Below, piece by piece: positions 1,873-48,608 of a stretch of 48,608 nucleotides of DNA. The DNA comes from a virus. Each line of letters starts with the position of its first letter. The stretch's first letter is position 1. Position numbers and translations under genes: made by a program. The notes below the pieces were generated by a model, which worked only from the letters and a program-made list of their open reading frames with translations, searched no databases and had not been told where the DNA came from. The stretch is taken from positions 1-48,608 of IMG/VR virus record IMGVR_UViG_3300044638_005143; one strand, given 5' to 3'.

Positions 1873-4800
1873 TCACCCAATAAGTTTAAATGATTTACCG
1901 ATAGAGCGTGTACTAAATCCCCAATCTTCCTGATAGTCAAGCTTTGCAACATAAGGATGATTGAGGTGAATCACATCTTTCTTTGGATCATAACTCCAGC
2001 ACTTGATTTTTGTTACAATATTCGTTTCGTCAATCGCTTCAACAATCAAATAATGTTTTCCATTCTTTGTTGTTTTCTTTTCAAGCGCTTTTGGAATAAA
2101 CCAGCAAATACCAAGTTCTGCATCATATTCTCCAAGAGGAGGAACCATCTTTTCGGCAAGTTTCTTTTGAATTTCCTCGGAGACTATCATATTGATTGGA
2201 TACACTCCTGTCAACTCCAAAGTGTTCAAAATCTTTTCATCTCTGCTGAAATCACCTTCTGGTGCATAAGTTTTAATATTCTCTACCAGATTATCTGGTT
2301 TACGAGGACGATCAACAGCAATAGCAGACCAGAAATGTTTTGCTCCTGTAAAACGACTATCCATTAAACTTACAAGTGCTTCACTACGACAAAGAGCATC
2401 AACATTCTTCTTATTCAGTTTGCTATAACTGATTCGTGGATGGAAAAGGAAATCCTCAACTGTCTTAAATGGACGATGATCAAGAATTTCTTTAATTGCA
2501 GCATCACCAACACCTTTAATAGCTGAAAGTGGCTGAATTAATGTTTTTCCATCTTCGCTAATTTCCCATACGTTACCAGATTTATTTACATCAACACCTT
2601 GAACAATAAATCCGGCAGCTTTTACAATATTTACTGCTTTTTCTTTCTTACTGTCTGGCTGACTATCAAGGTAAGCAGCAAGCCACTCGCTTGGATAATA
2701 ATTGTATAGCCAAGCACATTGAAAAGAAATGATAGAATAGCTGACAGCGTGAGATTTATTAAATCCATATCCAGAGAAGTAAATAAACTTCTGCCACAGT
2801 TTTTCACCAATATCTTTTCCAATGCCCCTATCTACACAACCATTAACAAACTTATCATGTAGTTTTTCTTTTACTTCTGCTTCTTTTCCGGTTCCTTTCT
2901 TGGTCAATACCTTTCGTAGAGAGTTGCCCTCATCAAGAGAAATATCACGACCAAGTTTGTGAGCAAGAAGAGCAATTTGTTCTTGGAAGACGAGGTATCC
3001 ATATGTTTCGCTTGTTGCCTCTTTGATCAATTCATGTTCATAAACAACATCATCTGGATTATGCTTACTTTCGGCAAATGATTTATCAACGCCTGCCGAT
3101 AGAGGACCGGGACGGAAAATAGAGGTAATAGAAGAAATATCAACGATATTGTTTGGTTTTACTCGCTGACAAAAGTTCTGTGCTCCACTTTCTGTAAATT
3201 GGAATACACCTGCCCATTTACCAGCATGGAAGATATTTTCATATACATTCTTATCGTTCATATCCAATACATCTGGATGTAGATTCTTCATATAAAAATC
3301 TTTCACATCATTGAACGTTGGGTTCTTTACACCCTTATGGCGACGAAGAATATGCTGAATACACTTCTCAATCATGTTAAGAGTTTCAAGGCCAAGAACG
3401 TCAAATTTAATGAAACCCATTGGCTCAAGATGACGAACGTTTTGACCTTCACTCCACGGTGTTTGACGAACACCTTTGCTATTGATTAGTGGCATCCACT
3501 GATCAAGGTTTTCACCTACTACAATACCACCAGCATGACGAGACGCTGAACGAATTGAACCATGTAGCTGTTCAATATGCGTTTTGATATGTGGATATGT
3601 AGCAAGGAATGTTTGAAGGGTTGGTGAATATTTCATCACTTCTTCAAATGTTGGATTATAAATACCAGCAGTAATTCCATGCTCTGCTTTTGCAAGTGGA
3701 GTAGCTTCAAAAAGCATTTTATTGGTTACAGCATTTACTTCCTGGAAATCAACACCATAGAACTTACTAATATCCTTGATTAGTGAACGCAACTGTAGTG
3801 TATTCCAATTGGTGATTGGAACAACATTATTCTTTCCCCACTCGTCAATAAGGTTTTGCTTCAAACCCATAGCATCACTTACATCATAGTCAATATCGGG
3901 ATAATCTGTTGCTGTCTTTGAAAGGAAACGCTCAAATTGAAGACCGTGCCTAATAGGGTCAACTTGTGTAATTCCAAGAACATAAGACACAAGAGCACCT
4001 GCCGCAGAACCACGACCGGGACCAGTAATATAACTTTGGTTTGCGCGATCAGAAATAGCTTTCATTGTCAAGAAATACTTGGCAAATCCACGCTCTTTGA
4101 TTACATCAAGTTCACGCAATAGGCGATCATGATATTCTTTATTACTCCACTTCTTCATGTCTCGCAAACCTGCTTCGGCAAGTTCGTCAAGCACTTGCTC
4201 GGCAGTTTTATCTTTTGGAAGAATAAAATTTGGAAGACGAACAGTATTATCTGGAATAAATTCTTCAATACGATTGTGAGCAATATTCCAGGTTTCCTCA
4301 ATTGTATTGAGGACAAAGTTGTCATCGTACTTTACGCCACACTTTGCAGAATATTTCTTATACGCTTCCCACATCTGATCGCCATTCTTTGGGTATAGCG
4401 TATATTCCATATCATCAACACTATCTGGAAGTGTAGTGTCCATATTCTTGCTTCCAAGGAAGCCAAGTTTCTTGTAAATCTCGCGGTCCTTCCATGCACC
4501 GGGAGTTGGATAGTGACTATCACCGGTAGAAATAACTTTAATACCGAATTCTTCACAAACTCGGATAATAAGCCTATTCAATTTATGTTGTTCAAGAATG
4601 CCATTCCATTGAACTTCGCCATACCAACGATCACCAAAAATATCAATCATCTTGCGTGAAGTTTCACGCATAGCATTTAGTACAGCGTCATCACCGTTTT
4701 CCCAATTTTCCCAAAAGTCAGTAGCATACACTCCACCAAGACAGGCAGAAGATGCAATAATACCTTCGTTGAATTGCTTCAACATTTCATAGTCAATACG

Positions 4801-5289
4801 AGGAAAACGATAATAGTTTTCGTCAGCAAAACTCTTGCTGATGAGTGTGAAAAGATTATTCAGACCTTTCTGATTTTGTGCGAGAAGAACAAGGTGGGAA
4901 CGCCGATTGAGAATACTCTTTTTAGTCTTCTTTGTCTCTTCTTCGTTCTCAACAATCGCTCCGGTGATCTCCTCGTCCTCTTTTTTGCTTTTTGTAGTTT
5001 TTTCAATTTCTTCCTTGTCTTTCCGCCATTGTGCGATAGATGGATTGAAATACATTTCACAGCCATAGATCCCTTTGATCTGGCGTCCTTCTTTGTTCAT
5101 TTTTTTAATATGAATAACTTGCCCCGCCAAAGCATTCATATTCCCGTGATCTGTGATGGCAAAAGCATCCAGTCCATTTTCATAGGCAAAATCCAAATGT
5201 TCATCAGGCATACCAAGCCCATCGTGGATACTATAGCCAGTATGCGAATGAAGACCGACGAATTTGATTTTAGAAATCTTGCGTTCCAT
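1873..5289 (-). CDS. dnaE: DNA polymerase III alpha subunit (DnaE type)
   Basis: Replicative C-family polymerase, 1138 residues, close to bacterial DnaE length. An N-terminal PHP domain keeps a full metal-ligand set: H14-S-H16, D47-H48, E78, H132 and D257-S-H259. Then come the palm signatures GPGRGSAAGALVSYVLG (423-439) and PDIDYD (464-469, catalytic aspartates), the GYGFNKSHA segment, a helix-hairpin-helix (IKGVGDAA), and a C-terminal OB-like region. T4 relatives normally use a family B polymerase (gp43), so this is an unusual replacement. The intact PHP site suggests possible built-in proofreading (inference). The GTGGAG ribosome site lies inside the 3' end of the adjacent LAGLIDADG endonuclease gene. 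Confidence 0.95.
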   Translation of the reverse strand: MERKISKIKFVGLHSHTGYSIHDGLGMPDEHLDFAYENGLDAFAITDHGNMNALAGQVIHIKKMNKEGRQIKGIYGCEMYFNPSIAQWRKDKEEIEKTTKSKKEDEEITGAIVENEEETKKTKKSILNRRSHLVLLAQNQKGLNNLFTLISKSFADENYYRFPRIDYEMLKQFNEGIIASSACLGGVYATDFWENWENGDDAVLNAMRETSRKMIDIFGDRWYGEVQWNGILEQHKLNRLIIRVCEEFGIKVISTGDSHYPTPGAWKDREIYKKLGFLGSKNMDTTLPDSVDDMEYTLYPKNGDQMWEAYKKYSAKCGVKYDDNFVLNTIEETWNIAHNRIEEFIPDNTVRLPNFILPKDKTAEQVLDELAEAGLRDMKKWSNKEYHDRLLRELDVIKERGFAKYFLTMKAISDRANQSYITGPGRGSAAGALVSYVLGITQVDPIRHGLQFERFLSKTATDYPDIDYDVSDAMGLKQNLIDEWGKNNVVPITNWNTLQLRSLIKDISKFYGVDFQEVNAVTNKMLFEATPLAKAEHGITAGIYNPTFEEVMKYSPTLQTFLATYPHIKTHIEQLHGSIRSASRHAGGIVVGENLDQWMPLINSKGVRQTPWSEGQNVRHLEPMGFIKFDVLGLETLNMIEKCIQHILRRHKGVKNPTFNDVKDFYMKNLHPDVLDMNDKNVYENIFHAGKWAGVFQFTESGAQNFCQRVKPNNIVDISSITSIFRPGPLSAGVDKSFAESKHNPDDVVYEHELIKEATSETYGYLVFQEQIALLAHKLGRDISLDEGNSLRKVLTKKGTGKEAEVKEKLHDKFVNGCVDRGIGKDIGEKLWQKFIYFSGYGFNKSHAVSYSIISFQCAWLYNYYPSEWLAAYLDSQPDSKKEKAVNIVKAAGFIVQGVDVNKSGNVWEISEDGKTLIQPLSAIKGVGDAAIKEILDHRPFKTVEDFLFHPRISYSKLNKKNVDALCRSEALVSLMDSRFTGAKHFWSAIAVDRPRKPDNLVENIKTYAPEGDFSRDEKILNTLELTGVYPINMIVSEEIQKKLAEKMVPPLGEYDAELGICWFIPKALEKKTTKNGKHYLIVEAIDETNIVTKIKCWSYDPKKDVIHLNHPYVAKLDYQEDWGFSTRSIGKSFKLIG

Positions 5290-6067
5290 TAATTAAACTC
5301 CACTTTCTTTCTAATTTCGGTATTTGATAATCTTTTATTCTATTAAAAATAGTTATAAATGTTTTACCATTAAAACAAAGTTTATAAACATTCTTATGTT
5401 TTTGTATTTTTGGAAGAACAATATTTAACTCTTTTTCAAGAACTTCCTTGAACCATATCATCATTTCTTCTGTTCCTATTATCGCAGAATTTATATAATG
5501 ATATTTTTCTTTATATATCGTTTCGTAAATTGTACCATCTCCATCTAAATAACCAACAAAAAAAGATAAAATTAAATCTATATCATTTAATTTTGGTGGC
5601 TTCAGTATTAATGATTTTTTTGGAACTATATTAAAATTCTTCATTAAATCTTCATATATTTTACGAGAATTAATTGATAGTACAGCAGCACCAGAATAAT
5701 TTTTAATTTCTCCAGAATATTCAATATCTTGTTTTAATTTATTCAAATGTTCTTTATCGCCATTTTGCAGACAAACATAGGTTCTATAATCTTTTTTTCT
5801 TACATTTCCATCTGCTGCTAAAAATCCAGCCCAATAACAATTTAAAATATTTGGAACTTTAAAAAAACTTTCATTTATCTCATATTGTCTCTTGTGAGAC
5901 ATTTTGTTGTTTCCACAACCTTTTGAGTTATATAAAGACAATTTCCTAACTTGATTTGAAACAGATTCAATAGTTCTCTGTAAATTGACTGCTATCTCTT
6001 TATAAGAAATTAACTCGTAATTTTGTTTTAAATAAATATTTTCTTGTTCAGTCCATCTTTTACCCAT
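5270..6067 (-). CDS. Freestanding LAGLIDADG homing endonuclease
   Basis: A 265-residue monomeric two-motif endonuclease. The first motif is YWAGFLAADGNV (78-89) and the second FFVGYLDGDGTI (169-180); acidic residues close both, as needed for metal-dependent double-strand cutting. Residues 4-45 form a Myb/HTH-like segment (RWTEQEN, YKEIAVNLQRT) that may add DNA binding. ATG 6067 has GGAG 8 nt upstream. The last 20 nt overlap the dnaE start in another frame and hold the dnaE ribosome site, so it sits directly against its probable target. It is not an intein, because dnaE is an uninterrupted separate frame. Confidence 0.93.
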   Translation of the reverse strand: MGKRWTEQENIYLKQNYELISYKEIAVNLQRTIESVSNQVRKLSLYNSKGCGNNKMSHKRQYEINESFFKVPNILNCYWAGFLAADGNVRKKDYRTYVCLQNGDKEHLNKLKQDIEYSGEIKNYSGAAVLSINSRKIYEDLMKNFNIVPKKSLILKPPKLNDIDLILSFFVGYLDGDGTIYETIYKEKYHYINSAIIGTEEMMIWFKEVLEKELNIVLPKIQKHKNVYKLCFNGKTFITIFNRIKDYQIPKLERKWSLINGTQDF

Positions 6068-6124: not shown

Positions 6125-6439
6125 TTATTTAAACACCTCACCATCAACTTCATCTTCATAGAAATAGTATTCTTTACCATCAACTTGTGAATACCAGATA
6201 TAACCATTATCATTTTCTGTTGAATTTTCTTTAAAAATTTCACTATGTTTTTCAACCTCCGTGATAATACCATAGGTATTATTAAGGCGAAGGTGAAGGC
6301 GAAGGAGAAGGAGAGGGCGAGGGAGAAGGCGAGGGCGAAGGCGAGGGAGAGGGAGAGGGCGAGGGAGAGGGCGAGGGTGAAGGAGAGGGAGAGGGCGAAT
6401 ATTTTTTACAAGAACAAGTTCGCCAACTTGATATTTCAT
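6125..6439 (-). CDS. Small MKYQVG-type protein interrupted by hexamer repeat
   Basis: About 104 residues. The N-terminus MKYQVGELVLVKNI matches the next gene upstream (6527-6709), so the two are paralogues of a small beta-rich phage family. After residue 14 a run of 38 residues made only of R, P, L and H follows, encoded by the GGNGAR/YTCNCC repeat. The frame then resumes as NNTYGIITEVEKHSEIF and ends with a YYFYEDE acidic tail. The start at ATG 6439 is chosen by comparison with the paralogue. The repeat is a whole number of codons, so both halves stay in frame. Function is unknown. Confidence 0.65.
   Translation of the reverse strand: MKYQVGELVLVKNIRPLPLLHPRPLPRPLPLPRLRPRLLPRPLLLLRLHLRLNNTYGIITEVEKHSEIFKENSTENDNGYIWYSQVDGKEYYFYEDEVDGEVFK
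6286..6399. repeat. 19-unit GGNGAR hexanucleotide tandem repeat
   Basis: Nineteen consecutive 6-bp units on the plus strand fit GGNGAR exactly (N is C, A or T, never G; R is A or G). Substitutions fall only at every third base. In one minus-strand frame this encodes (Ser-Pro)19 and in one plus-strand frame (Gly-Glu)19, and in both frames all variation is synonymous. In the frame actually joined to the flanking gene the changes alter amino acids. Confidence 0.97.
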
Positions 6440-6443
6440 ATTT

Positions 6444-6515
6444 TCACCAAATAGAAAAGCCCGAATGGGCATGAAGTCCAACAAACTTAATCTTGGACAC
6501 TTTACGATCAGTCAT
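6444..6515 (-). pseudogene. Remnant of a second dnaE 5' end
   Basis: Reading from ATG 6515, 23 codons give MTDRKVSKIKFVGLHAHSGF then SIW and a TGA stop. This aligns with the start of the intact DnaE, MERKISKIKFVGLHSHTGYS, including the PHP His-x-His motif, then the similarity ends abruptly. A good ribosome site (ACGAGG, 5 nt before ATG) is still present. Codons differ widely from the intact copy, so this is not a recent duplication but the residue of a diverged allele. The stop is followed within 5 nt by the start of the MKYQVG-type gene. Confidence 0.85.
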
Positions 6516-8032: not shown

Positions 8033-8780
8033 ATGGACTTCCTAACATTTTAGTTATTTTTTTCATTAGTGGACTTTTTGTTTCTTTTCTTTCAACTAAA
8101 ATTTTATCTTCTTGAACTCGCGTGTCAAGCAATACATCTCTACGAATTGTCATTGTGTTTAGTTTGTGAGTTCTACAACCCTTTTTCAACTGTTCTACTC
8201 TACCAACAATACCGTGGGTTTTCAATATCTCTGTTGTCTTTAAACGAGCATAAACTTCACTATATGCTTCGTTATTTACTTGTTCTTGAGTGAGTGAAGA
8301 TATTGCTGCTATTTGTGTCATTTTGTTTTCTATCATAGTATAAAAATGATTTACAAAATCATCACCAGTATTGATTTTGTTTATTGTTTGTATTTCTGGT
8401 AGTTGTATATTTATCAGTTTGATATAATCAAGAACACGCAGTTTTTCTGTTGGTTGAACTTGATCGTATCTAATAATATTGTTATACTGGACTTCTATTT
8501 TATATGCCGACTTACCAAATACTGTTAGTATATTTTCTTCATCAAAACGATATGTTCCTGCTTTTTCTCCAAATGGATTCAATCCTGCATAAGAAAGATA
8601 ATAACTGAACTTTCTCCAAATTCTTGCTTTATTAGAACCAAGTGGATCAACATCACGATAAAAAGGAATTTGAGGGTTTACCATTATTAGTGGTATTCCC
8701 TCAACATAACTGTGTATAAGTGCTTCTATGGTTCCACCAAGTATTATGGTATCATAGGTAATTTTTTCTAATTTTTCCAT
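8022..8780 (-). CDS. Hypothetical protein with Rossmann-like N-terminus
   Basis: A 252-residue protein. The start YDTIILGGTIEALIHSYVEG has the beta-strand, glycine turn and helix pattern of a nucleotide- or FAD-binding fold, but GGTIEA lacks the full GxGxxG motif, so cofactor binding is not assured. The C-terminus is basic (KETKSPLMKKITKMLG). Its start overlaps the PQ-loop gene by 29 nt and its end overlaps the nucleotidyltransferase-like gene by 11 nt, so the three form a translationally coupled set. No family assigned. Confidence 0.6.
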   Translation of the reverse strand: MEKLEKITYDTIILGGTIEALIHSYVEGIPLIMVNPQIPFYRDVDPLGSNKARIWRKFSYYLSYAGLNPFGEKAGTYRFDEENILTVFGKSAYKIEVQYNNIIRYDQVQPTEKLRVLDYIKLINIQLPEIQTINKINTGDDFVNHFYTMIENKMTQIAAISSLTQEQVNNEAYSEVYARLKTTEILKTHGIVGRVEQLKKGCRTHKLNTMTIRRDVLLDTRVQEDKILVERKETKSPLMKKITKMLGSPYAD

Positions 8781-9021
8781 ACAAATATTTGTAATACATT
8801 ATTATAACAACAAATACAAAATTTAAAGAATAATTCATCAAAAGAGGAAAAGAAAATTGCTGAAACAAAACATACACTAGCATGAACACTTCGCCAAATA
8901 GCCAAAACCACAAGTTTAAATGACTCATCCCATCTGCATTCTTTTCACGATAAACTTTTACAACTTGTGGAAAAGCACAAATAGATAATAATATTCCACC
9001 TATCCAACCAACGATTTCCAT
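8752..9021 (-). CDS. PQ-loop (SemiSWEET-like) membrane protein
   Basis: An 89-residue integral membrane protein with three hydrophobic segments (about residues 3-19, 37-55 and 58-76) and the PQ motif at P18-Q19 followed by KVYREKNADGMS, the signature of a single PQ-loop triple-helix bundle. Bacterial SemiSWEETs of this size dimerise to move sugars across the inner membrane; some PQ-loop proteins have other substrates. It overlaps the next gene by 29 nt. Family membership is well supported; transport of any particular solute is inference. Confidence 0.8.
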   Translation of the reverse strand: MEIVGWIGGILLSICAFPQVVKVYREKNADGMSHLNLWFWLFGEVFMLVYVLFQQFSFPLLMNYSLNFVFVVIIMYYKYLYGKIRKNYL

Positions 9022-9030
9022 ATTGTGACC

Positions 9031-9615
9031 TTATTTTATCTTTTCAAAATCTTGATCAGTTTCTTTTTTGCCAGAGAAAAAAATAGCAACATTATATAGC
9101 TTTTCTTTATCTTTTCCCATATCATGCCATCTATCCACAAACTCTTTAACTGGTAAAGTTCCAACTTTATTATAAATGCTTGGATCTCTCATATAAAGAT
9201 TTTCTTCATCCATTCCAACGAGAACAGCATAGTGTCCATCTTTCCAATCTTTTTTCCAATTTGGTTTTTTATCTTTAGACCATGCTTGAAAATTTAGTAT
9301 TACTGGATTACCATCTGATAAAGAAGATTTTAATTCTTCTAAATCACACTCTTTTCTAACACTACAATTTAAACCGTGTTTTTCGGCAACTCGTTTAATT
9401 GCTTTTAACGAAGTTCCATCTTCGCTATTGGTATTAAGTTCTTTTGTTAATTCTTTCTCATTTTTATCATAAAGATCATAAAATGCAAGAATTGCCAACA
9501 AACATGCAGAACCACAACTATAATCATTAAACTGACGTATATCTGGAACATCAAGAAGTTTTGGTTCTTTCTTTTCTAAAAGAAATTTACGCCATTCAGT
9601 CAAAAATTGTTTCAT
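9031..9615 (-). CDS. C39-like cysteine protease with N-terminal packaging-type tag
   Basis: A 194-residue protein with a papain-like C39 peptidase layout: Q28 and C34 in RQFNDYSCGSACLLAI, H128 in DGHYAVLVGMD, and D144 in MRDPS. C39 domains usually cleave double-glycine leaders in bacteriocin exporters; here no transporter is attached, so the substrate is unknown. The first 17 residues, MKQFLTEWRKFLLEKKE, closely match the N-terminus of the next gene upstream and resemble T4 internal-protein capsid-targeting sequences (MKTYQEFIAE). LTE and LLE fit the [L/I]-x-E cleavage rule of the T4 gp21 prohead protease. Capsid delivery is inference. No clear Shine-Dalgarno precedes ATG 9615. Confidence 0.8.
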   Translation of the reverse strand: MKQFLTEWRKFLLEKKEPKLLDVPDIRQFNDYSCGSACLLAILAFYDLYDKNEKELTKELNTNSEDGTSLKAIKRVAEKHGLNCSVRKECDLEELKSSLSDGNPVILNFQAWSKDKKPNWKKDWKDGHYAVLVGMDEENLYMRDPSIYNKVGTLPVKEFVDRWHDMGKDKEKLYNVAIFFSGKKETDQDFEKIK

Positions 9616-9636
9616 AATCTTAAATAGAAATTAATA

Positions 9637-10692
9637 TTAGTATTCTACTTCAACATACTTAGTTTTACAAGGGTTTCCATCGCCATAAACAAACTTTCTT
9701 TCTCTGGGAAGAAATATGATTGAAAATACTGTTGCTGTGTCTTTTTCATCTTCTACATGACGACAAAGACCGCCTTCACCATGAGATTTCATTACTTCTT
9801 TCATATCTTCTACAGACATTTTATTGCCTTTTTCTTTAGCATCTGTTAGTGCTCTTTCGAGTCTTTTCATGGAACGTTCTAAATTATCACCTTTTCTTCC
9901 CTCTTTGTTTTTAAGGGATATAAAATGATTTGTATGGGCGTCTATACCATCACTATGATTAGTTTTCTTTTCTTCTTCTGAACTGGCTTCTAAACTTACA
10001 ACTTCTCCACTATCATCGGCAAGTATATTATTGAAAGAACTTGCTCGTTTTGAGTTTAATAATATATTTTGTGCTTCTTTCATATTTTTACTGAAAAGTG
10101 CTTCAAAATATAGCACCATTCTCGGAATTCCTGGTTTTGTATCATTAGCATCTATTTGATTACCAGAAATAACAAGACCATCCTCATTTAATCCTATCGA
10201 TGGAACACCTCTAGTAAAACATCCATATATTACTGGCTTATCTTTAATTGATAATTTTATTAATTTTGAACCATCACCGGGAGTTTCATCATTCGTGTGA
10301 CCTATCATAACTGTTTTATTGTTTATAACAATAATGTCAGTACAACCTTCATCTTTTACTTTTTCTTTATTTTTTGCATAATTTAATTCTTCATACCAAG
10401 TACCAAAAGCCACATCAAAATCAATATCCGCACCATCAGCCATACCATCAATAAATTCATAGGTATTAGGTGCTTCTTTTTTTGTTAGTTTTTTTGCCTT
10501 TTCAAGCCATTCTGGAAATTCTTTTATTAAATCTTCTGTTTTGTGTTTTTTAACAGCGTTATTGATTTGCTTTTTTAGCAATTCACCAATAGAAAAACCA
10601 GCATCTTTCATATTGGATGCTGATATTTCTTTTATTAATTTGGTTTTTTCTTCTTTTAAGAATTTACGCCACTCGGTTAATAGTTCTTTCAT
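9637..10692 (-). CDS. C45-like Ntn acyltransferase with N-terminal packaging-type tag
   Basis: About 351 residues of the acyl-CoA:6-aminopenicillanate acyltransferase (peptidase C45) family. The likely catalytic cysteine is C117 in DEGCTDIIVIN, exposed as an N-terminal nucleophile after self-cleavage, followed by MIGHTNDE, IPSIGLNEDGLVISGN-like and FNNILADDSGEVVSLE segments typical of the fold. Family members hydrolyse or transfer amide-linked acyl groups. The N-terminus MKELLTEWRKFLKEEK repeats the tag of the downstream C39-like gene. ATG 10692 is chosen because the tag begins there; the frame is open further upstream into thyX. Confidence 0.82.
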   Translation of the reverse strand: MKELLTEWRKFLKEEKTKLIKEISASNMKDAGFSIGELLKKQINNAVKKHKTEDLIKEFPEWLEKAKKLTKKEAPNTYEFIDGMADGADIDFDVAFGTWYEELNYAKNKEKVKDEGCTDIIVINNKTVMIGHTNDETPGDGSKLIKLSIKDKPVIYGCFTRGVPSIGLNEDGLVISGNQIDANDTKPGIPRMVLYFEALFSKNMKEAQNILLNSKRASSFNNILADDSGEVVSLEASSEEEKKTNHSDGIDAHTNHFISLKNKEGRKGDNLERSMKRLERALTDAKEKGNKMSVEDMKEVMKSHGEGGLCRHVEDEKDTATVFSIIFLPRERKFVYGDGNPCKTKYVEVEY

Positions 10693-10700
10693 ACCACTAA

Positions 10701-11315
10701 TTAGAGGCCAAAAGCGGTTAATGTATGCTCGTATTCGCCACATTCTTTCACAAGACGTAGCATTTCTTGTGCAATTTCACGAATTTCTACCTGTGCTGCT
10801 TCATCATTTCGTAGACGTTGGAAATGAACAAATGAACGCATATTAAACATTACATCAAATGTAAGCTGTGTTGCATATGGTAGATAAAAACGAGCACTTT
10901 CTTTTGCACGCTTACGACCAAGTGTAGGTGTTAGACGAGCAAGTGCTTCATGATATTTCTTTAAACTATCTTCACAATGATCTTGTAATAGTTTTTGTTC
11001 TTCTACTGACCAATCATGAGGAATATAATACTTATCATCTTTTAGTTCTTTATATCTTGCACTTTCACAATTGATTGATACACCAATGCGATGTTTTAGG
11101 CAATGAATATGTGATGCGATTTCAGCGGTTACAAGAAAATGAAGCGATGACTTTTCAAATGGAGTTTCGTGTCCGTTTTCAGCAAGCATCTTCAATAGTG
11201 CTGGAATACGGTTTTGTTTTTCTTCTGTTAATTCACGAGAAGTGCTTGTCCAAGCAGACATTGCATGAGATTTATCAGACCCATAAACACCAATTAATAC
11301 AATTTCGTTTTTCAT
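10701..11315 (-). CDS. thyX: Flavin-dependent thymidylate synthase ThyX
   Basis: 204 residues; converts dUMP to dTMP with FAD, NADPH and methylenetetrahydrofolate. GHETPFEKSS (48-57) and KHRIGVSINCESARY (74-88) are the ThyX substrate and flavin-binding signatures; the latter is a variant of the RHRxxSxNxxSxRY motif with K for the first R. The C-terminal FNMRSFVHFQRLRNDEAAQVEIR block is also typical. ATG 11315 overlaps the upstream gene by 4 nt. Together with dUTPase and class II RNR it completes a host-independent dTTP route. Confidence 0.95.
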   Translation of the reverse strand: MKNEIVLIGVYGSDKSHAMSAWTSTSRELTEEKQNRIPALLKMLAENGHETPFEKSSLHFLVTAEIASHIHCLKHRIGVSINCESARYKELKDDKYYIPHDWSVEEQKLLQDHCEDSLKKYHEALARLTPTLGRKRAKESARFYLPYATQLTFDVMFNMRSFVHFQRLRNDEAAQVEIREIAQEMLRLVKECGEYEHTLTAFGL

Positions 11316-14517: not shown

Positions 14518-16728
14518 TTATAATGCATCTGGCGGTGTAAAATTTGCTGTATATCTTGCGATAGACTTTATAACGCGGAAATCATCAATAAATCCATTAA
14601 AATACAGTGGGCCACCTACTGGTTCAATACCAATAACAGCACCGTTTTCAATAAAGTTAGTAGAATTTGCAACACTACCATTTAAAACACCATTTTGATA
14701 TATTGAAAGAGTGCTTCCGTTTCTAACAACTGCAATGTGTGTCCAAGTTGCTAATGGTATGGCGTTTGTTGCAAGCAAGAATTGTGTTGTTTGATTTGTA
14801 ATGCGAATTCTGTTTGTATTATTAATTTGAATATGAAGCGAATTGCCAGCGCCCGTTGTAGAACTGACGAAAATTGCACCAAGATTTTGATTGCCATTCA
14901 AATATACCCATCCCTCAACAGTAAAATTACCTGTTCCAAATGAGAATACTTGGTTTGATGGTAATGTTAGCCAATCAGCATTACCATCAAATGCTATACT
15001 TGAACCTCCAAACTTACTTTGGACAGTGCTGATTCTTACATCGCCATTTCTTGTAACGGCTAAATTATTTGCACTACTATCAATTATATTAGTGCTATTA
15101 TCTGCACCGTCGCCTCTTAATAATAAAGAGGTTATTTGTGATTCTCGTAGTGGATATCTTACAATAACTATACCAGAACCGCCTTCACCGCCGGCTTTAC
15201 TGAATCCGGAATTGTCTCGTTGACCACCGCCACCACCACCGCCAGTATTTGATAAACCCGGATTTCCTGACCAATTAATACCGCCAGAACCACCGCCACC
15301 TGCGCCACCGGGAGAACCACCACCAGCACCACCACCACCGGCATAAAATGTTGCTGTTCCATTTATAGAAGATTGAAGACCATTTGTTAAACCACTTGCA
15401 CCAATGCCACTCGTTGGACTGAAATTTGAACCTCTAAAAGCACCGCCAGAGGCAGTTATAGTAGAAAACGACGATGAGTTTCCTGTGCCTGTTGATAGGG
15501 CACCAACTCTGATAGGATAGTTTTGCGCGACAACAGTAGTAGAGCCAGTCAGCATTTGACCTGCATTACCACCGTTTCCTATATAAAAACCGCTTCCTTG
15601 GGGGCCACCTCCAAGATAGCCAGTTCCGCCAGCAGCACCGCCACCAACAACAAGATAATCAACTGTTCCACCAGAATTAAAATTTAATTGTCCATTTGAA
15701 GTAAATGTATGAACTCTATATATGGTATTGCTAATATTTATATCATTTGTTGTTCCGCCACTTGCGGAAATTGGCCTAAATGCAGCCAAGCCTTGTAAAT
15801 TAACATTTGTTAAAGAACCACCACTTGCACTTAAAGTTAATACAGCAGTTTTAACACCTTCTGAGGTTGGACTAAATGTTGCAGTAACAAATTGACTTGC
15901 ACCACCTCCTGTTAAACTAAATGAACTTGGTGAAAAACTAAATTGATTTGAATTATCACTAACTGCTACTGTTTCTGTGCCGCCAATACCACCAGCAGAA
16001 ACTGTGAATGTGCTACTTGAATTTTCATTAATAAATCCAGTTCCAAAATCAATTGATGCAACGCTTGAGGTTAATATAAGAGGTCTAAATATACCAGAAC
16101 CCATTAATGACACATGCGCTACATCGCCACCACTCGCCGACAATGTCAAAATACCCACTTTTGAACCACTACTGGTTGGAGTAAAATATACTGTAATATT
16201 TTGTGCTTGATTTGCTCCATTCATGCTAAATGAAGTTGGAAAAAAATCAAATTGATCAGAATTGTCAGAAAGCAACACTATATCTTGAACTGCACCACCA
16301 GCAGACACAGTAAATGATGCGCTTGCTATTTCTTGAATATATCCATTACCGAAATTAATATTTCCAACGCTTGAAGTTATTATAAGGGGATTTGCGATAC
16401 AAACACCGGATAGTGCAACAGTTTTAGTTGAACCACCAGATGAAGCAATCGTTATTTCTCCAGTTTTAACACCCCAACTTGTTGGCTCAAATGTTACAGT
16501 AACTAATTGACTTGAAGTTGCAGAAAGTGTAAATAAACTTGGAAAGAAACTATATTCTCCAGTATTATCGGTCAGTGTTACAGTTTCTATTGTATTTCCA
16601 CTTATTGCACTAACAATAAATGTTTTTTGCTCTGTATCGCCAATATAAGCATTGGAAAAAGATAAACTTGAACTATTGGTTGATAAAACCAATAATATAT
16701 TGGGATCTGGCTCATTATAGAAAAACAT
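14518..16728 (-). CDS. Modular adhesin / tail fibre-like virion protein
   Basis: 736 residues. Three repeats of about 100 residues (roughly 10-110, 112-214, 216-318) share SxxxxFGNxxI, TFTVSAGG, LTLSASGG and look like ASH/HYDIN-type immunoglobulin folds. Then comes a glycine-rich domain (about 325-535) opening with YRVHTFTSNGQLNFNSGG and DYLVVGGGAAGG, a form common in phage tail adhesins. The C-terminal 190 residues form a LamG/concanavalin-like domain (SSIAFDGNADWLTLPS, FTVEGWVYLNG, GFIDDFRVIKSIARYT), likely to bind glycans. A late-type promoter element precedes the gene. Host binding is inferred from architecture. Confidence 0.82.
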   Translation of the reverse strand: MFFYNEPDPNILLVLSTNSSSLSFSNAYIGDTEQKTFIVSAISGNTIETVTLTDNTGEYSFFPSLFTLSATSSQLVTVTFEPTSWGVKTGEITIASSGGSTKTVALSGVCIANPLIITSSVGNINFGNGYIQEIASASFTVSAGGAVQDIVLLSDNSDQFDFFPTSFSMNGANQAQNITVYFTPTSSGSKVGILTLSASGGDVAHVSLMGSGIFRPLILTSSVASIDFGTGFINENSSSTFTVSAGGIGGTETVAVSDNSNQFSFSPSSFSLTGGGASQFVTATFSPTSEGVKTAVLTLSASGGSLTNVNLQGLAAFRPISASGGTTNDINISNTIYRVHTFTSNGQLNFNSGGTVDYLVVGGGAAGGTGYLGGGPQGSGFYIGNGGNAGQMLTGSTTVVAQNYPIRVGALSTGTGNSSSFSTITASGGAFRGSNFSPTSGIGASGLTNGLQSSINGTATFYAGGGGAGGGSPGGAGGGGSGGINWSGNPGLSNTGGGGGGGQRDNSGFSKAGGEGGSGIVIVRYPLRESQITSLLLRGDGADNSTNIIDSSANNLAVTRNGDVRISTVQSKFGGSSIAFDGNADWLTLPSNQVFSFGTGNFTVEGWVYLNGNQNLGAIFVSSTTGAGNSLHIQINNTNRIRITNQTTQFLLATNAIPLATWTHIAVVRNGSTLSIYQNGVLNGSVANSTNFIENGAVIGIEPVGGPLYFNGFIDDFRVIKSIARYTANFTPPDAL

Positions 16729-25946: not shown

Positions 25947-26303
25947 TTATTTATTGCTGAGAACTTTATTTCTTAACGGCTGTAATTCAGATGGCAATGA
26001 TTCGCCAGGACGAAAGGTATGAACAGCTTTTGACATTTGGCCTCTATTAGTCGCATCAAAATCAAAAAGTTCAAACCCTTTCTTACCATCATAATATCCA
26101 TATCTTTTTCCATCCAAAGGAGTACCGGTATTTTTTAATTCTGGAGTAACACCGTGTAAACCCATAGATATTGCTACGTGCTGTAAAATTTGTTCTTTCC
26201 GATCAACTGGAGATACTGAGACTTTTACTTTTGCTTCTTGTCCCAATATTTCTTCTAATTCTTCTTTGATTATCTGTTTTAATCTATCACGTGATAGCTT
26301 CAT
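25947..26303 (-). CDS. Putative capsid-packaged protein with MKLSRDRLKQ tag
   Basis: 118 residues. The first 18, MKLSRDRLKQIIKEELEE, are almost identical to those of the neighbouring gene at 26379-26705, while the rest differs (SMGLHGVTPELKNTGTPLDG, FELFDFDATNRG). IIKEE offers [L/I]-x-E sites for a T4 gp21-type prohead protease. I recall similar basic-then-acidic N-terminal tags on many proteins of large marine phages. The gene is monocistronic: own CTATTTA promoter element, GGGAG ribosome site and own terminator. The downstream domain is not recognised; packaging is inference. Confidence 0.7.
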   Translation of the reverse strand: MKLSRDRLKQIIKEELEEILGQEAKVKVSVSPVDRKEQILQHVAISMGLHGVTPELKNTGTPLDGKRYGYYDGKKGFELFDFDATNRGQMSKAVHTFRPGESLPSELQPLRNKVLSNK

Positions 26304-26378: not shown

Positions 26379-26705
26379 TTAAAGAAGAAACATTTCAATT
26401 TGTTGTTTTAATTCTTCATCCTTAATCTTATTCAATAATTGTTCAGTATTAATAGAATCACGGTATTGTTCCATACCTGAAAAAATAAAATTCCCTAAAT
26501 TTATTAGTTCAGCATCCTTCATTTGAGAACCCAAACTAATAAGCTTCATGCCTAAAGTTGGATCTTTTTTACCAACTGTTTTTTTCTGAACATATCTTGG
26601 ACTTGGCTCACCTAATCCAACATTAATTTCTCTGCTTCTCTCGCGAGATATCTCTTCCAATTCTTCTTTGATTATTTGTTTTAATCTTTCGCGTGTTAAT
26701 TTCAT
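26379..26705 (-). CDS. Putative capsid-packaged protein with MKLTRERLKQ tag
   Basis: 108 residues: tag MKLTRERLKQIIKEELEE, then a basic linker (SRERSREINVG) and a helical C-terminal domain (MKLISLGSQMKDAELINLGN, LLNKIKDEELKQQIEMFLL). The tag's nucleotide sequence is also close to that of the gene at 25947-26303, whereas the cargo regions differ. It is flanked by the two copies of the 44-bp promoter/terminator repeat, so it is a self-contained unit between recA and the deaminase. Function of the cargo is unknown. Confidence 0.7.
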   Translation of the reverse strand: MKLTRERLKQIIKEELEEISRERSREINVGLGEPSPRYVQKKTVGKKDPTLGMKLISLGSQMKDAELINLGNFIFSGMEQYRDSINTEQLLNKIKDEELKQQIEMFLL

Positions 26706-29445: not shown

Positions 29446-30284
29446 GCCTTGCTCGGCTGCTGGATGAACTTTGTTCGGGCAACGCAATAAACAAAATTTT
29501 CCTGATATGTTGTTTCATATATATTAAACAGAACTCTAACATTTTCTTTCTGTCTTTCTTTTACTTGACCCTTGATCGTTTGCAATAAATTTTTTTCTTT
29601 TTTAAGTGTATTAGAATTTATAGCAAAATAGTATGTAATTTCTTCTATATTGTTTAAATCAAAAAACCACTTAATATCTGTTGATCCTATTTCTGATAAA
29701 CCAATTGTTTGAATTCTGGCTATATCATTTAGTTCTATATTATTTGATAATATAGGCTTGATATTATTATAAATGTTTATGTAATGAGAAGTAGTGGATA
29801 TTAAATCTGTTAATTTATCATTTATCTCTAAAATACTAACATTATTTAATAGTTTTTCTAAACTGATTTTATCAAAAGCAATAAAACCTTGAAACAATCC
29901 CGATCTTGTATATTCTTGTAAAATACTAAAAGTTATTTTATCTTGTAATTTTTCTGTATTACCCATCAGTTCAAGATCGGAACGAACATAGTAAATATTA
30001 ATTTTACGATCTTTAAAATTCTCTAAAAACCTCAATATTATTCCACTTATACCTTCTGAACCATCAAGGAATACAGATATTTCACTATTTTTATCATCAA
30101 TAAAAGTTTTTAATTTTTCTGGGTAGTTCTTTTCATATTCCTCTGCATTCTTTAAATCCGGAAGAATATATGTATCACATTCATTTTCCACTGTATCAAT
30201 ACTATACACATCGTATTGTGGATATTGAGAAAATTTATTTACAAGTTCAGAACAAAAACTGCCTATACCAACAAGAGAAATCAT
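29442..30284 (-). CDS. Tubulin/FtsZ-like protein (degenerate)
   Basis: 280 residues. The start MISLVGIGSFCSELVNKF resembles the first glycine loop of FtsZ (GxGGxGxN), and VFLDGSEGISGIILRFLE (71-88) sits where tubulins have the GGGTGTG signature, here strongly altered. IYYVRSDLELMGNTEKLQDK and YTRSGLFQGFIAFDKISLEK suggest the rest of the Rossmann-like GTPase domain. I recall related genes in marine T4-like phages, usually uncharacterised. The start overlaps the polymerase stop (ATGA). GTP binding and polymerisation are unproven. Confidence 0.55.
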   Translation of the reverse strand: MISLVGIGSFCSELVNKFSQYPQYDVYSIDTVENECDTYILPDLKNAEEYEKNYPEKLKTFIDDKNSEISVFLDGSEGISGIILRFLENFKDRKINIYYVRSDLELMGNTEKLQDKITFSILQEYTRSGLFQGFIAFDKISLEKLLNNVSILEINDKLTDLISTTSHYINIYNNIKPILSNNIELNDIARIQTIGLSEIGSTDIKWFFDLNNIEEITYYFAINSNTLKKEKNLLQTIKGQVKERQKENVRVLFNIYETTYQENFVYCVARTKFIQQPSKA

Positions 30285-31462
30285 AATATTTTCCTCATAT
30301 CTCCAAGTGTTTTACCAATCTTCACACTTGATTTAAACTTACCAAATTCAGTATTATTATATGTATCAACAATTTGTTTAATCAAATGTTTTTCTTCTTT
30401 TTTCATATCAATCACAATATTGTCATGAATAACAATTTTAATTTTTGATTCACAGCCTTTTAGTATTTCATTAACTTTTAACGCTTGTCGTAGTGCCATG
30501 CCAGCCGTTGTGCTTTGAACAATATAATTTACAGAATGAAATTCATCTGCTTCAATAACTTTTCCATAGTGGTTTTTAACCACTCTTCCATCCCAATATT
30601 TATTCTTAATTAAATCTGAATTGTAAAATTCTTTAAATTGCTTTTCTTTTTCGTTCTTTTTACCATATAGCCAGGAAATAAATTCATTTTTAGCAGTTTT
30701 TCTATCTTCATATCCGAATTTAACACGATTCCATTCATGAACATCGTTTATTGGTTGCTTATAGCCACTTAAAGCAAGAAATACACGAACCTCGGCAGCA
30801 TTATAATCAATATCAAGCAAGAAATCTCCATCTGGCTTGATATAACCACGCAGTTCTTTGCTTAAATTGAGGATTGGAAAACTATTTTCTTCTGTTGTTA
30901 AACGACCAGTCTTTGAGTGAAACTGATTGTAGGAAATATAGTTTTCTTTATTAAAGTATTTTTGATAGAAGTCTTTAGTTTTTTGATCGTGCAAGTTGTT
31001 TTTAATCAGTTCTTCATCAAATGATAGTTTCTGAAATGAGATGTCTTGGATCAAGATTGATAGATCTTTTCTGAAATCATAATCAATTGGTTTTGGATAT
31101 GTATTGATTATATGATCAATAATCTGACACTTAATCTCGCAAAAGTCAATCAAAAACTTGCGAGGAACAAGATCATAAAAACAATTTTCTTTTAGAGAAA
31201 CTTTTGATTCAAGGAAAGAACGAACAAACGCTTTTGCTTGTTTGTTTAATTTATCCCATGTATCTCTCAGATGTTCTGGACATACTTCATCGTAGTCCTT
31301 TCCATCGCAAAATAAATTTGCATATAGTGTATTGCTATCACCATACTTAGAATATTTCCAAGTTTTATCTAAGTTTTGTTTTGGATCTTGACCAAATAGC
31401 AGATCGCCATTAGAGTAGAATCCAACGCATTCAGTTTTGTCGTCCAAAGTGAGAAAAGTCAT
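30281..31462 (-). CDS. Short family A DNA polymerase (polymerase domain only)
   Basis: 393 residues. NQFHSKTGRLTTEENSFPIL is the family A TGRL segment; motif A is DYNAAEVR (219-226), motif B R254-x3-K258-x7-YG (RKTAKNEFISWLYG), and motif C IVIHDNIVID with HDN (346-348) in place of HDE. No 3'-5' or 5'-3' nuclease domain is present; Pol I is over 900 residues and T7 polymerase about 700. The catalytic aspartates D219 and D347 are kept. It may act in repair, in primer gap filling, or as a non-replicative polymerase beside DnaE (inference). A promoter lies immediately upstream. Confidence 0.88.
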   Translation of the reverse strand: MTFLTLDDKTECVGFYSNGDLLFGQDPKQNLDKTWKYSKYGDSNTLYANLFCDGKDYDEVCPEHLRDTWDKLNKQAKAFVRSFLESKVSLKENCFYDLVPRKFLIDFCEIKCQIIDHIINTYPKPIDYDFRKDLSILIQDISFQKLSFDEELIKNNLHDQKTKDFYQKYFNKENYISYNQFHSKTGRLTTEENSFPILNLSKELRGYIKPDGDFLLDIDYNAAEVRVFLALSGYKQPINDVHEWNRVKFGYEDRKTAKNEFISWLYGKKNEKEKQFKEFYNSDLIKNKYWDGRVVKNHYGKVIEADEFHSVNYIVQSTTAGMALRQALKVNEILKGCESKIKIVIHDNIVIDMKKEEKHLIKQIVDTYNNTEFGKFKSSVKIGKTLGDMRKIL

Positions 31463-45840: not shown

Positions 45841-47157
45841 TCAACCCACAAATATAACATTTGGAACTGCAGAAAGTAATTTATTAGTATTATCGGACAT
45901 TGCTGTTCGTTTTTCTGCAAGAGTGTTGTAATCTGTTTCTTCAAGTATCTTAACAAGCTCTTCTTTGAGAGAATCTTTTTCTTCTTTACTTTGACTTCTT
46001 AAATCTGCACCATTTAATGTAACACTTTCACCTGGAATTGGTATTGTTTGAAATTTACTGCGCACTTCTGCCAACATGCCTTTTGCAACGGCGAGAGCAT
46101 AACGACGAATCCAGTGTTTACCAATAGCATTAATGTTTTCAAATGGAATATTTGAAAATGGAAGAGTATTGATGTTATTAACACCACCAATTCTTGGATC
46201 TTTTCCACTTGATGCCACATATGAAGAACCTGAAAGATTTCCTATTCCAAGATTTGCTCCACTTCCCGCACCTACACTGAATTCAAACCAAAAGACATTA
46301 ATATCAGTTGTATCCGGTATTGGATAAAGACATATTTTATTATTCTTGATTTCATATGAATAATGTGATATACGCGTATAGATGTTATCTTCATAAGCCA
46401 TCGCTTGAAGTTTATTATGCCATGCTGGAATAACTTCAAAAGTGCTATCGTCAGCATACTGACCATAAGTTGAAAGGTTTCCTACAGCGTTTAAACCACC
46501 GTAGTAACCATAAAACCTCCACATTGCACGTGCAGATTTATAGAATACTTTGCGAACAGTTATTCTTGAGCCTGGAACAATTTTACCATACAAATTAGAT
46601 GTTGGATCTGAAGCTGAAGCTGAAACTATTTCTTGTAAATCATAGTCTTGTTTCTCTGCTACGGTATTAAAAGAAGCCTTATATATATCTATTTTTCCAC
46701 CAATACCTGCTTCGTGTGAAAATGCATCAGCAACATCACGAACAGCAGTTATATCATACATTGGATATGCAAGACTTAAGGAGCCAGAAGCATTAACAAG
46801 ATTAAAAAGAGCACTCCCACTCTTTATTTCGCCATCACTATTAAATGTGCCAGTTGGAGAACCAAGCAACATTCCAACAGAACTTTTTGCTTGATGAAGA
46901 TTGACAAAATATGAATAAGTCAATACAGCATCTTCATATGCCGCATATATCTGTCCTTCAGTTACTTCTATATCAAGAACATCGCCACCTATCATTTTAT
47001 AGGTATATGCAACCTGATCTACTGCTCCGCTGATAAAATCATTGTTGTTGGCATATACACCAATAGGCAAATTTGCTGGAACATTTGAAAAAGTCCCAGT
47101 TGGTGGCAATATTATTGCACTGGTTTGACTCTTGGGTGTTAAGACGGGAACAGCCAT
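45841..47157 (-). CDS. Neck protein (gp13-like)
   Basis: 438 residues (T4 gp13: 309). The first part has VAYTYKMIGGDVLDIEVTEG and YAAYEDAVLTYSYFVNLHQA. The most characteristic part is near the end: IGKHWIRRYALAVAKGMLAE and IPGESVTLNGADLRSQSKEE, which resemble the gp13-type C-terminus that I recall in large T4-like phages. Gene order (capsid, this, gp14-like, gp15-like, sheath) supports the assignment. A CTATTTA element and TATAGGAG ribosome site precede ATG 47157. Confidence 0.7.
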   Translation of the reverse strand: MAVPVLTPKSQTSAIILPPTGTFSNVPANLPIGVYANNNDFISGAVDQVAYTYKMIGGDVLDIEVTEGQIYAAYEDAVLTYSYFVNLHQAKSSVGMLLGSPTGTFNSDGEIKSGSALFNLVNASGSLSLAYPMYDITAVRDVADAFSHEAGIGGKIDIYKASFNTVAEKQDYDLQEIVSASASDPTSNLYGKIVPGSRITVRKVFYKSARAMWRFYGYYGGLNAVGNLSTYGQYADDSTFEVIPAWHNKLQAMAYEDNIYTRISHYSYEIKNNKICLYPIPDTTDINVFWFEFSVGAGSGANLGIGNLSGSSYVASSGKDPRIGGVNNINTLPFSNIPFENINAIGKHWIRRYALAVAKGMLAEVRSKFQTIPIPGESVTLNGADLRSQSKEEKDSLKEELVKILEETDYNTLAEKRTAMSDNTNKLLSAVPNVIFVG

Positions 47158-47260: not shown

Positions 47261-48608
47261 TCAGCCGAGCATATCTTGTACGACAACGAGGCCGTAAAGA
47301 TCTGGGCGTACCATCTTCTTGGCGTAACGGGTCATGACACCCTTACGTGGTACGAAGTCTTCAGTACCAAAGATGGTTGGTGTAACTTGTAGTGGGACGT
47401 ATGGAGCATATACGAATCCGCTTTCGAGGAAGCTATTGCCCTTACGACCTACGAGAACAACGTTACGTGGGAAGTATGGATCAACGAATACATCCCATTT
47501 CTTGCTGAGTGAGCCAGATTTAACTGCACCGATTGTGCCCTTGGCATCATCATGGACAACGTTTGCACGGAATCCACTGGTGAATTCAAGGATATTAGCA
47601 ACTTCTGGTCCGCAAACAACGAAGTTTGCACCACCGCGAAGTGTCTTACGGTGGATAGCAGCACTTACATCATTGATTGTTTCAACAAGGGTTTCATACC
47701 ACATTGAAACGTTACCAGTGAAGTCAGCACCACCAGCGCCAATTGTAGCTTCGCCAGCAATTGGTAGACCGGTTACGCGGTCAACGAATTTACCTGGACG
47801 ACGTGACCAGTATAGAGTTGCAGCGGTTGCACCTTTAACGAGTTCACCGAGCATTTCTTGATCAATTTCAAGACCAATCTGTTCTGAGAGAATTGAAGTT
47901 AATTCAACTTCTGCATCAAGATTGTGATAAGCATTTAGATCTTGACCAAGTTCTGGTGTCCATTTTGCTTTGAGCTTGCGGCTCTTGGCAGTTACAGCAA
48001 CACTGTCAACTTTGATGTCAATTTCTGGAATTGCTGCTTCGCCTTCAAATGTAACTTGTGAAGCTACGATTGCACCGAGCGAATTGGCAACATTACCGAG
48101 AACATCAGCAATTGGCCATGAAGCAGCACGTGAACCGGCATTATCGTCAAGAGCAGTTGGAGCAAGAGTATCACTTGCAACTACAAGACGAACATGTGTA
48201 TAGGTATCACCGCCAACATCAACAAGACCAGTTGAATCGGTCTTAGCAGATAGACGACGAACAAGTGAACCACTTGGTAGTGGGCTAACATTGATAGCAA
48301 TTAAACTACTCTTATCAAGAGTTGTTAATTGAGCAACTGGAACAGTGAATACTGCAACGTTGGTTGTACCACTGACAAAGTCTGCATCAAATTTGCAGAG
48401 TTTGTCAAGAGTGCCACCAGCACCGAAAGTGCCTGATGTAACGAGAGTTAGAGTAACGTTACCTGAACCGGTTGGAAGTGAATAACCTTGGTTTAATGCA
48501 CGAAGTGAATTTTCAGCATTTGGACCTGAGAGGCTGACACCACCGGTTAATTGTGAACCAACAACGCCACCACCGAATAGTGAAGTGTCTTGTAGATTTG
48601 CACCACGG
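47261..48608 (-). CDS. Major capsid protein (gp23 type), 5' end outside window
   Basis: About 449 C-terminal residues; the frame is open to the window edge, so the start and the propeptide are missing. EIDIKVDSVAVTAKSRKLKA followed by KWTPELGQDLNAYHNLDAEV matches the T4 gp23 region AKSRALKAEYTMELAQDLKA. HK97-fold segments follow (GANFVVCGPEVANILEF, WDVFVDPYFPRNVVLVGRKG). The C-terminus ends PDLYGLVVVQDMLG. gp23 is cleaved by the gp21 protease in T4; gp21 and gp22 homologues should lie just beyond this end. Confidence 0.95.
   Translation of the reverse strand, partial: RGANLQDTSLFGGGVVGSQLTGGVSLSGPNAENSLRALNQGYSLPTGSGNVTLTLVTSGTFGAGGTLDKLCKFDADFVSGTTNVAVFTVPVAQLTTLDKSSLIAINVSPLPSGSLVRRLSAKTDSTGLVDVGGDTYTHVRLVVASDTLAPTALDDNAGSRAASWPIADVLGNVANSLGAIVASQVTFEGEAAIPEIDIKVDSVAVTAKSRKLKAKWTPELGQDLNAYHNLDAEVELTSILSEQIGLEIDQEMLGELVKGATAATLYWSRRPGKFVDRVTGLPIAGEATIGAGGADFTGNVSMWYETLVETINDVSAAIHRKTLRGGANFVVCGPEVANILEFTSGFRANVVHDDAKGTIGAVKSGSLSKKWDVFVDPYFPRNVVLVGRKGNSFLESGFVYAPYVPLQVTPTIFGTEDFVPRKGVMTRYAKKMVRPDLYGLVVVQDMLG

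Follow-up and report, generated by a model that had tools for sequence, protein, structure and literature searches.

Phage T4 offers the closest described counterpart to the genes reported here. Its internal proteins Ip1-3 have the leader alone in common and block distinct restriction enzymes, and at least ten internal proteins have been found by their leader in T-even relatives (PMC12373910). As summarized in that part of PMC9026906 which cites Mullaney and Black (1996), residues 4 and 7 of the IPIII leader, MKTYQEFIAE, serve targeting, and residues 8 and 10 serve processing; this leader was confirmed in the T4 sequence. The Alt ADP-ribosyltransferase of T4 is likewise packaged in the virion, processed by gp21 and injected; it is much larger, and is processed at both ends (PMC9026906). 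In phiKZ and SPN3US, which belong to a different phage group, large sets of inner-body or ejection proteins carry propeptides that are cut after glutamate by a gp21-related protease, and the excerpts of the sources available on these phages mention no comparable short tag common to their N-termini.

Here we describe a 14-residue N-terminal tag that resembles the leaders (CTS) of IPI, IPII and IPIII in being a short leader on unrelated proteins, in ending with [IL]xE, and in occurring several times per genome, in accessory clusters, in phages with a T4-like capsid and an S77 prohead protease. It differs from them in length (14 versus 10 residues) and in sequence, with no significant overall homology; in its payloads, which are often recognisable enzymes and comprise at least 70 families; and in coming from an uncultured clade. 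When both are aligned on their final glutamate, T4 residues 4, 7, 8 and 10 correspond to W8, [FY]11, L12 and E14 of the tag, and the core [YW]xx[FY][IL]xE is common to the two, too short a stretch for a claim of homology. With a shared core of this length, and with packaging, cleavage and injection as predictions, we do not count the tag system among the T4 internal proteins. Some tagged proteins match ART-PolyVal and DUF3990, which recalls Alt; homology of Alt to the two enzymes discussed first is not expected.

Two adjacent enzyme genes with a common N-terminus

The window, that is, the whole 48,608-base IMG/VR contig that was analysed, carries the features collected in Table 1. The sequence-only reading had singled out an adjacent, unrelated C39-like protease and C45-like Ntn acyltransferase with near-identical N-termini. 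Both open reading frames are indeed present, and MKQFLTEWRKFLLE and MKELLTEWRKFLKE share 11 of their 14 residues (joint form MK(E/Q)(L/F)LTEWRKFL(K/L)E), with no recognisable likeness between the two proteins beyond the tag.

Table 1. Positions in the window of the tagged genes, their tags and upstream boxes, and the capsid gene.
Feature	Position	Strand	Remarks
C39-type cysteine peptidase gene, tagged	9031..9615	-	194 aa; from ORF call, Pfam and alignment
14-codon tag MKQFLTEWRKFLLE of C39 peptidase	9574..9615	-	E14 (codon 9574-9576) precedes the predicted gp21 cut
CTATTTA box of C39 gene	9621..9627	-	C exactly 12 nt before ATG; late-promoter-like
C45/AAT-type autoproteolytic Ntn hydrolase gene, tagged	9637..10692	-	351 aa from ATG 10692
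14-codon tag MKELLTEWRKFLKE of Ntn hydrolase	10651..10692	-	E14 (codon 10651-10653) precedes the predicted gp21 cut
CTAATTA box of hydrolase gene	10698..10704	-	C exactly 12 nt before ATG; overlaps thyX stop
Gene with second N-terminal tag (MKLSRDRLKQIIKEELEE)	25947..26303	-	from N-terminal comparison
Gene with second N-terminal tag (MKLTRERLKQIIKEELEE)	26379..26705	-	from N-terminal comparison
Major capsid protein gene (T4 gp23 type)	47261..48608	-	phrog_138, 1e-50; 5' end beyond contig

In profile searches the first product matched Peptidase_C39_2 (PF13529) with E = 5e-15 (56.7 bits, cut-off 24), and the catalytic-type residues C34, H128 and D144 are invariant in an alignment with relatives; the fold match and the Cys-His-Asp set identify it as a C39-like peptidase. 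It has the C39-type catalytic core in common with C39-like peptidases such as the endoisopeptidase PeiR (8z4h), to which the sequence match is weak, and differs from these in being a stand-alone domain that bears the tag. The second product matched AAT (PF03417) with E = 1e-18 and C45_proenzyme (NF040521) with 164.9 bits (curated cut-off 85), which identifies it as a C45 Ntn acyltransferase/hydrolase. Its G116-C117 is invariant in relatives and aligns with the GC of the Penicillium acyl-CoA:6-APA acyltransferase (2x1d), the autocleavage site of that enzyme. The likeness to the Penicillium enzyme and the C45 family extends over the full length; the window enzyme differs in being phage-encoded and in the added tag. 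A hydrolase start at 10743 was dropped in favour of the ATG at 10692, because the corresponding proteins of three related contigs (L002, L004 and L200) all start at the tag. AlphaFold models of the two enzymes, built on alignments of 3-4 sequences, reached mean pLDDT values of 36 and 48 and were set aside as being of low confidence.

At the DNA level 11 of 42 bases differ between the two tags by our own count, about half of them silently, so that neither tag is a recent DNA duplicate of the other. Both tags are retained in L002 (96%) and in L004, where a third tagged gene lies just upstream of the pair; its product (MKQLLNEWYKYLQE, 209 aa) belongs to no family and is unrelated to the other two. 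L200 also has both tagged genes, separated by a PQ-loop gene, and here the tag is varied (MKEFLTEWRRFLEE). The C39 homologue of the 595-kb phage LR756511 is without such a tag. Of the two cut sites proposed earlier, LTE and LLE, the latter ends the protease tag, while the hydrolase tag ends in LKE; LTE (residues 5-7), which the tags do not conserve, was rejected as an unlikely cut site.

The PQ-loop gene, which adjoins the tagged genes in the window, encodes a small, SemiSWEET-like membrane protein (8752-9021, minus strand; PF04193, 5e-13). It is replaced in L004 by a transporter-like and an acetyltransferase-like gene.

Recurrence of the tag and a second tag class

The window record is a 48.6-kb contig only, and the sequence-only reading had advised a search for the same tag in other genes. 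Extended to relatives, such a search was rewarding: there the tag occurs on at least 70 unrelated families, and the phenomenon is much larger than the pair first reported. IMG/VR was scanned with the pattern ATGAAR-N{3,18}-WRK[FY]LxE, in which the gap was left free. Among the IMG/VR matches listed, the gap was exactly 15 nt (MKx5WRK[FY]LxE) in 131/147; with the same pattern in cellular genomes the gap distribution was flat, 6/119 falling at 15. The 126 usable gap-15 proteins formed 70 unrelated clusters, which at E ≤ 1e-5 resemble one another in the tag alone; this number is a lower bound.

The consensus of the tag is MK[LK][LI][LFM][ET][NE]WRK[YF]LxE. Positions 3-7 and 13 were left unfixed by the pattern; L12 and E14 were fixed, the boundary of conservation was not. 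Pairwise identity between clusters was 48% at positions 3-7 and 8% at residues 15-19, and the sharp drop falls directly after E14, the predicted gp21 [LI]xE cut. Codons at the fixed residues vary freely across clusters (five codons for R9, six for L12); since the residues hold while the codons vary, selection acts on the protein. A loose form of the motif, [LIVMF]xxWxx[FYLW][LIVMF]xE, never occurred internally in a set of 827 genes from structural regions, which total 227,600 residues. A looser pattern applied to 27 long T4-like records gave 103 matches in 25 of them, with 1-10 copies each, and the reversed pattern gave none; copies within a record were mostly co-oriented and clustered. Four of the 27 records had been picked by their capsid gene alone: two of these had tags (2 and 5 copies) and two had none. 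The sharing of the tag seen in the window is thus far beyond chance.

Most tagged proteins had no known family in family scans. The families recognised include C45, C39, AAA_33/PNK-like kinases, ART-PolyVal, DUF3990, protein kinase and M23 peptidase, and further zeta-toxin kinase, NUDIX, GNAT, RNase T-type exonuclease, 2H phosphodiesterase and ParB-like proteins. Going by these assignments, the tagged set has the appearance of a toolkit of effectors and nucleotide/RNA-repair functions, and not of assembly factors. The same scans found an M23 peptidase in one member and a Tat signal in one member. In L103 (4158-5348, minus strand) a twin-arginine segment, SRRSFLKKAATAAGAVAA, lies ~70 residues past the tag; simple injection would not lead one to expect a Tat-type signal there.

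The window holds a second kind of shared N-terminus, on two adjacent genes for small unrelated proteins that start with MKL(S/T)R(D/E)RLKQIIKEELEE and sit upstream of the recombinase gene. In IMG/VR, the N-terminus MKITKxQLKQIIKEELxxVLxE was found on 158 proteins in 141 unrelated clusters. Here identity falls after residue 22; LxE occupies residues 20-22, and the next residue is in most cases G or A. This second tag was present in all 36 long T4-like records tested (1-20 copies each), and gp21 was present in 12/13 records picked by it. The second tag probably serves the same purpose as the first. The highest count, 20 second-tag genes, was in G034, the 273-kb record of L379. In the window, GACTATTTA lies upstream of both second-tag genes.

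Neither tag pattern matched T4, KVP40, Syn9, P-SSM2, HTVC008M, immuto, Mel-JY01 or RM378, and among these isolates none carrying the tag was found. Bare tag peptides gave no tblastn match in phage records, the queries being too short for this to inform. A search of open-access papers for the tag strings WRKYL/WRKFL and LKQIIKEE returned nothing relevant; the novelty of the tags rests on open-access text only.

Capsid genes, gp21 and an upstream box

By its gp23 gene, next to which lie a tail sheath, a baseplate hub and a head-tail adaptor match, the window phage, which is marine and uncultured, is assigned to the T4-like group. The phage records closest to the gp23 C-terminus were LR756508, Flavobacterium phage immuto, Microcystis phage Mel-JY01 and LR756511, and in this hit ranking, made without a tree, RM378 gp23 scored well above T4-types. 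These neighbours (uncultured giants, immuto, Mel-JY01 and RM378) fit the Far-T4 group (PMC4360716, PMC7198788). Virion proteomics was sought for the tag-bearing clade and for Flavobacterium phage immuto, and none was found.

The contig ends inside gp23, before the region that holds gp21 in relatives. Matches to gp23 occur in 23 of the 27 long records and matches to the S77 prohead protease gp21 in 24; those without one or the other are fragments of 101-123 kb. In T4, the genes surrounding gp21 are prohead core genes. In structural-gene loci, chosen by gp23 or gp21, N-termini with the W-motif of the tag occurred within two genes of gp21 in 5/103 genes versus 1/757 elsewhere (p = 1e-4), the sole gene elsewhere (in L205) lying in a short locus that had been fetched for its gp21 match. 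For the second tag the corresponding figures were 7/103 versus 2/757 (p = 9e-6).

The gp23 propeptide of relatives ends with LLENQAKELLRE before AS and resembles the tag. Tag scores in the first 80 residues of major capsid proteins (MCPs) exceeded those of other genes with p = 1e-36, a value that overstates independence, the MCPs being homologous. The gp21 N-terminus gave p = 2e-4 but low scores; as a relative of the tag (for example MKKLLQEYFAL in L041) it is suggestive by eye and weak by scoring, and we do not use it as a main argument.

Upstream of structural-region genes, CTATTTA (usually ACTATTTA) ranked first of 105 letter permutations (140/692, mean 7.7), mostly 24-47 nt ahead of the start. 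It was likewise top of the 105 permutations upstream of tagged genes (15/166, mean 1.1). In tagged genes of the window and its relatives, the C of CTATTTA or CTAATTA lies 12 nt (once 11) before the ATG, and the spacer CTATTTAAGATT-ATG recurs in distant contigs. The box looks like a late promoter of this phage group, as judged from its position and enrichment. Were it a -10-type box, the transcript would start near the ATG, which would yield leaderless mRNA at some tagged genes. We rejected the notion of a separate -12 box for each tagged gene, as about 20/194 have one; most of the others show a Shine-Dalgarno-like stretch instead. ACTATTTA/CTAATTA also occurs upstream of window positions 45841-47157 and in L005-L084.

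Possible function of the tag and alternatives

The sequence-only reading had proposed a capsid tag of the T4 internal-protein kind, cut by the prohead protease. We observed a tag that is modular and of fixed length, that ends in LxE, co-occurs with gp23 and gp21, recurs beside gp21 and shares an upstream box with structural genes. Together with the core common to the T4 CTS, these properties argue strongly, though indirectly, for that proposal; core binding, cleavage, packaging, injection, late expression and host targets are what we infer. At a probability of roughly 0.78, we consider the 14-residue tag a cleavable capsid-targeting propeptide, like that of T4 internal proteins in function, with a sequence of its own and a large enzyme repertoire. 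On this model the C39 protease and the C45 hydrolase would be made from their own late-type promoters, presumably late in infection. The amphipathic tag would bind the prohead core through its aromatic residues 8 and 11, and the tagged enzymes would be enclosed as the gp23 shell forms. The S77 protease gp21 would then cut after E14 ([LI]xE) and free the enzymes from the core; these would travel with the packaged DNA, enter the host with it and act, on putative host targets, before any phage gene is expressed. The host peptides and acyl-amide signals named as substrates in the sequence-only reading are conjectural. Several observations tell against the model: the isolates compared lack the exact tag, the likeness to the T4 CTS is confined to a short core, the N-terminus of gp21 resembles the tag weakly, roughly a tenth of the tagged genes have the -12 box, and one tagged protein has a Tat-type signal.

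Tag-like N-termini beside gp21, in the head cluster where T4 core proteins are also encoded, would equally suit proteins whose tag binds the core and is cut by gp21 and which act in the assembling head or ride as passengers, injection being incidental. This we consider unlikely: the majority of tagged genes are found at a distance from the head genes, in clusters of payloads, ART, kinase, NUDIX, PNK-like, C39 and C45 proteins have no obvious role in assembly, and the T4 precedents of this architecture are injected (PMC12373910). Less likely still is that the tag, unrelated to the capsid, is an address inside the infected cell, such as the membrane, the nucleoid, RNA polymerase or a phage-made compartment. 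The amphipathic nature of the tag would suit this, as would an envelope role, which some payloads (M23 peptidase, Tat-like signal) may have, but such an address leaves unexplained the sharp end at LxE, the co-occurrence with gp21 and gp23, the location beside gp21, the core shared with the T4 CTS, and the fact that two unrelated tags both end in LxE. Finally, recombination or promoter-start cassettes copied between genes with no targeting function would account for tag DNA that is near-identical within some genomes (e.g. ATGAAACTCCTACTTGAAAATTGGCG, repeated in G008) and for a box at fixed distance before the ATG in a subset, but are highly improbable given that codons vary freely across clusters while residues do not, and that several of the differences between the two window tags are silent.

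A capsid-targeting propeptide would have wider consequences. We think it rather probable that Far-T4-like phages, which are common in water, carry two undescribed capsid-loading tags able to make nearly any protein head cargo, and that up to about 20 swappable enzymes or inhibitors per virion reach the host before transcription. In that case injected effectors can be read off a sequence by their tag. T-even injected proteins of known function disarm host defences; if the tag works likewise, hundreds of unrelated unknown proteins from widespread uncultured phages are predicted injected effectors, ART, kinases, NUDIX, proteases and C45 hydrolases among them. This would supply a set of candidate factors for early host takeover and counter-defence that can be tested directly, and would add a loading signal to those known from phage heads.

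Several other genes of the window were noted by eye. On its minus strand lie genes for a DNA polymerase III alpha of bacterial type (1873-5289) and for a short piece of 393 aa that resembles a family A polymerase (30281-31462). Directly upstream of the polymerase III alpha gene, 5270-6067 appears to encode a homing endonuclease, in place of which L002 has a different, GIY-YIG-like one (14725-15501). A protein with an alternating P/R/L run, PLPRPLPLPRLRPRLLPRP, is encoded at 6125-6484 on the minus strand of the window and at 14348-14662 in L002; the run is apparently a simple DNA repeat expanding inside the gene.
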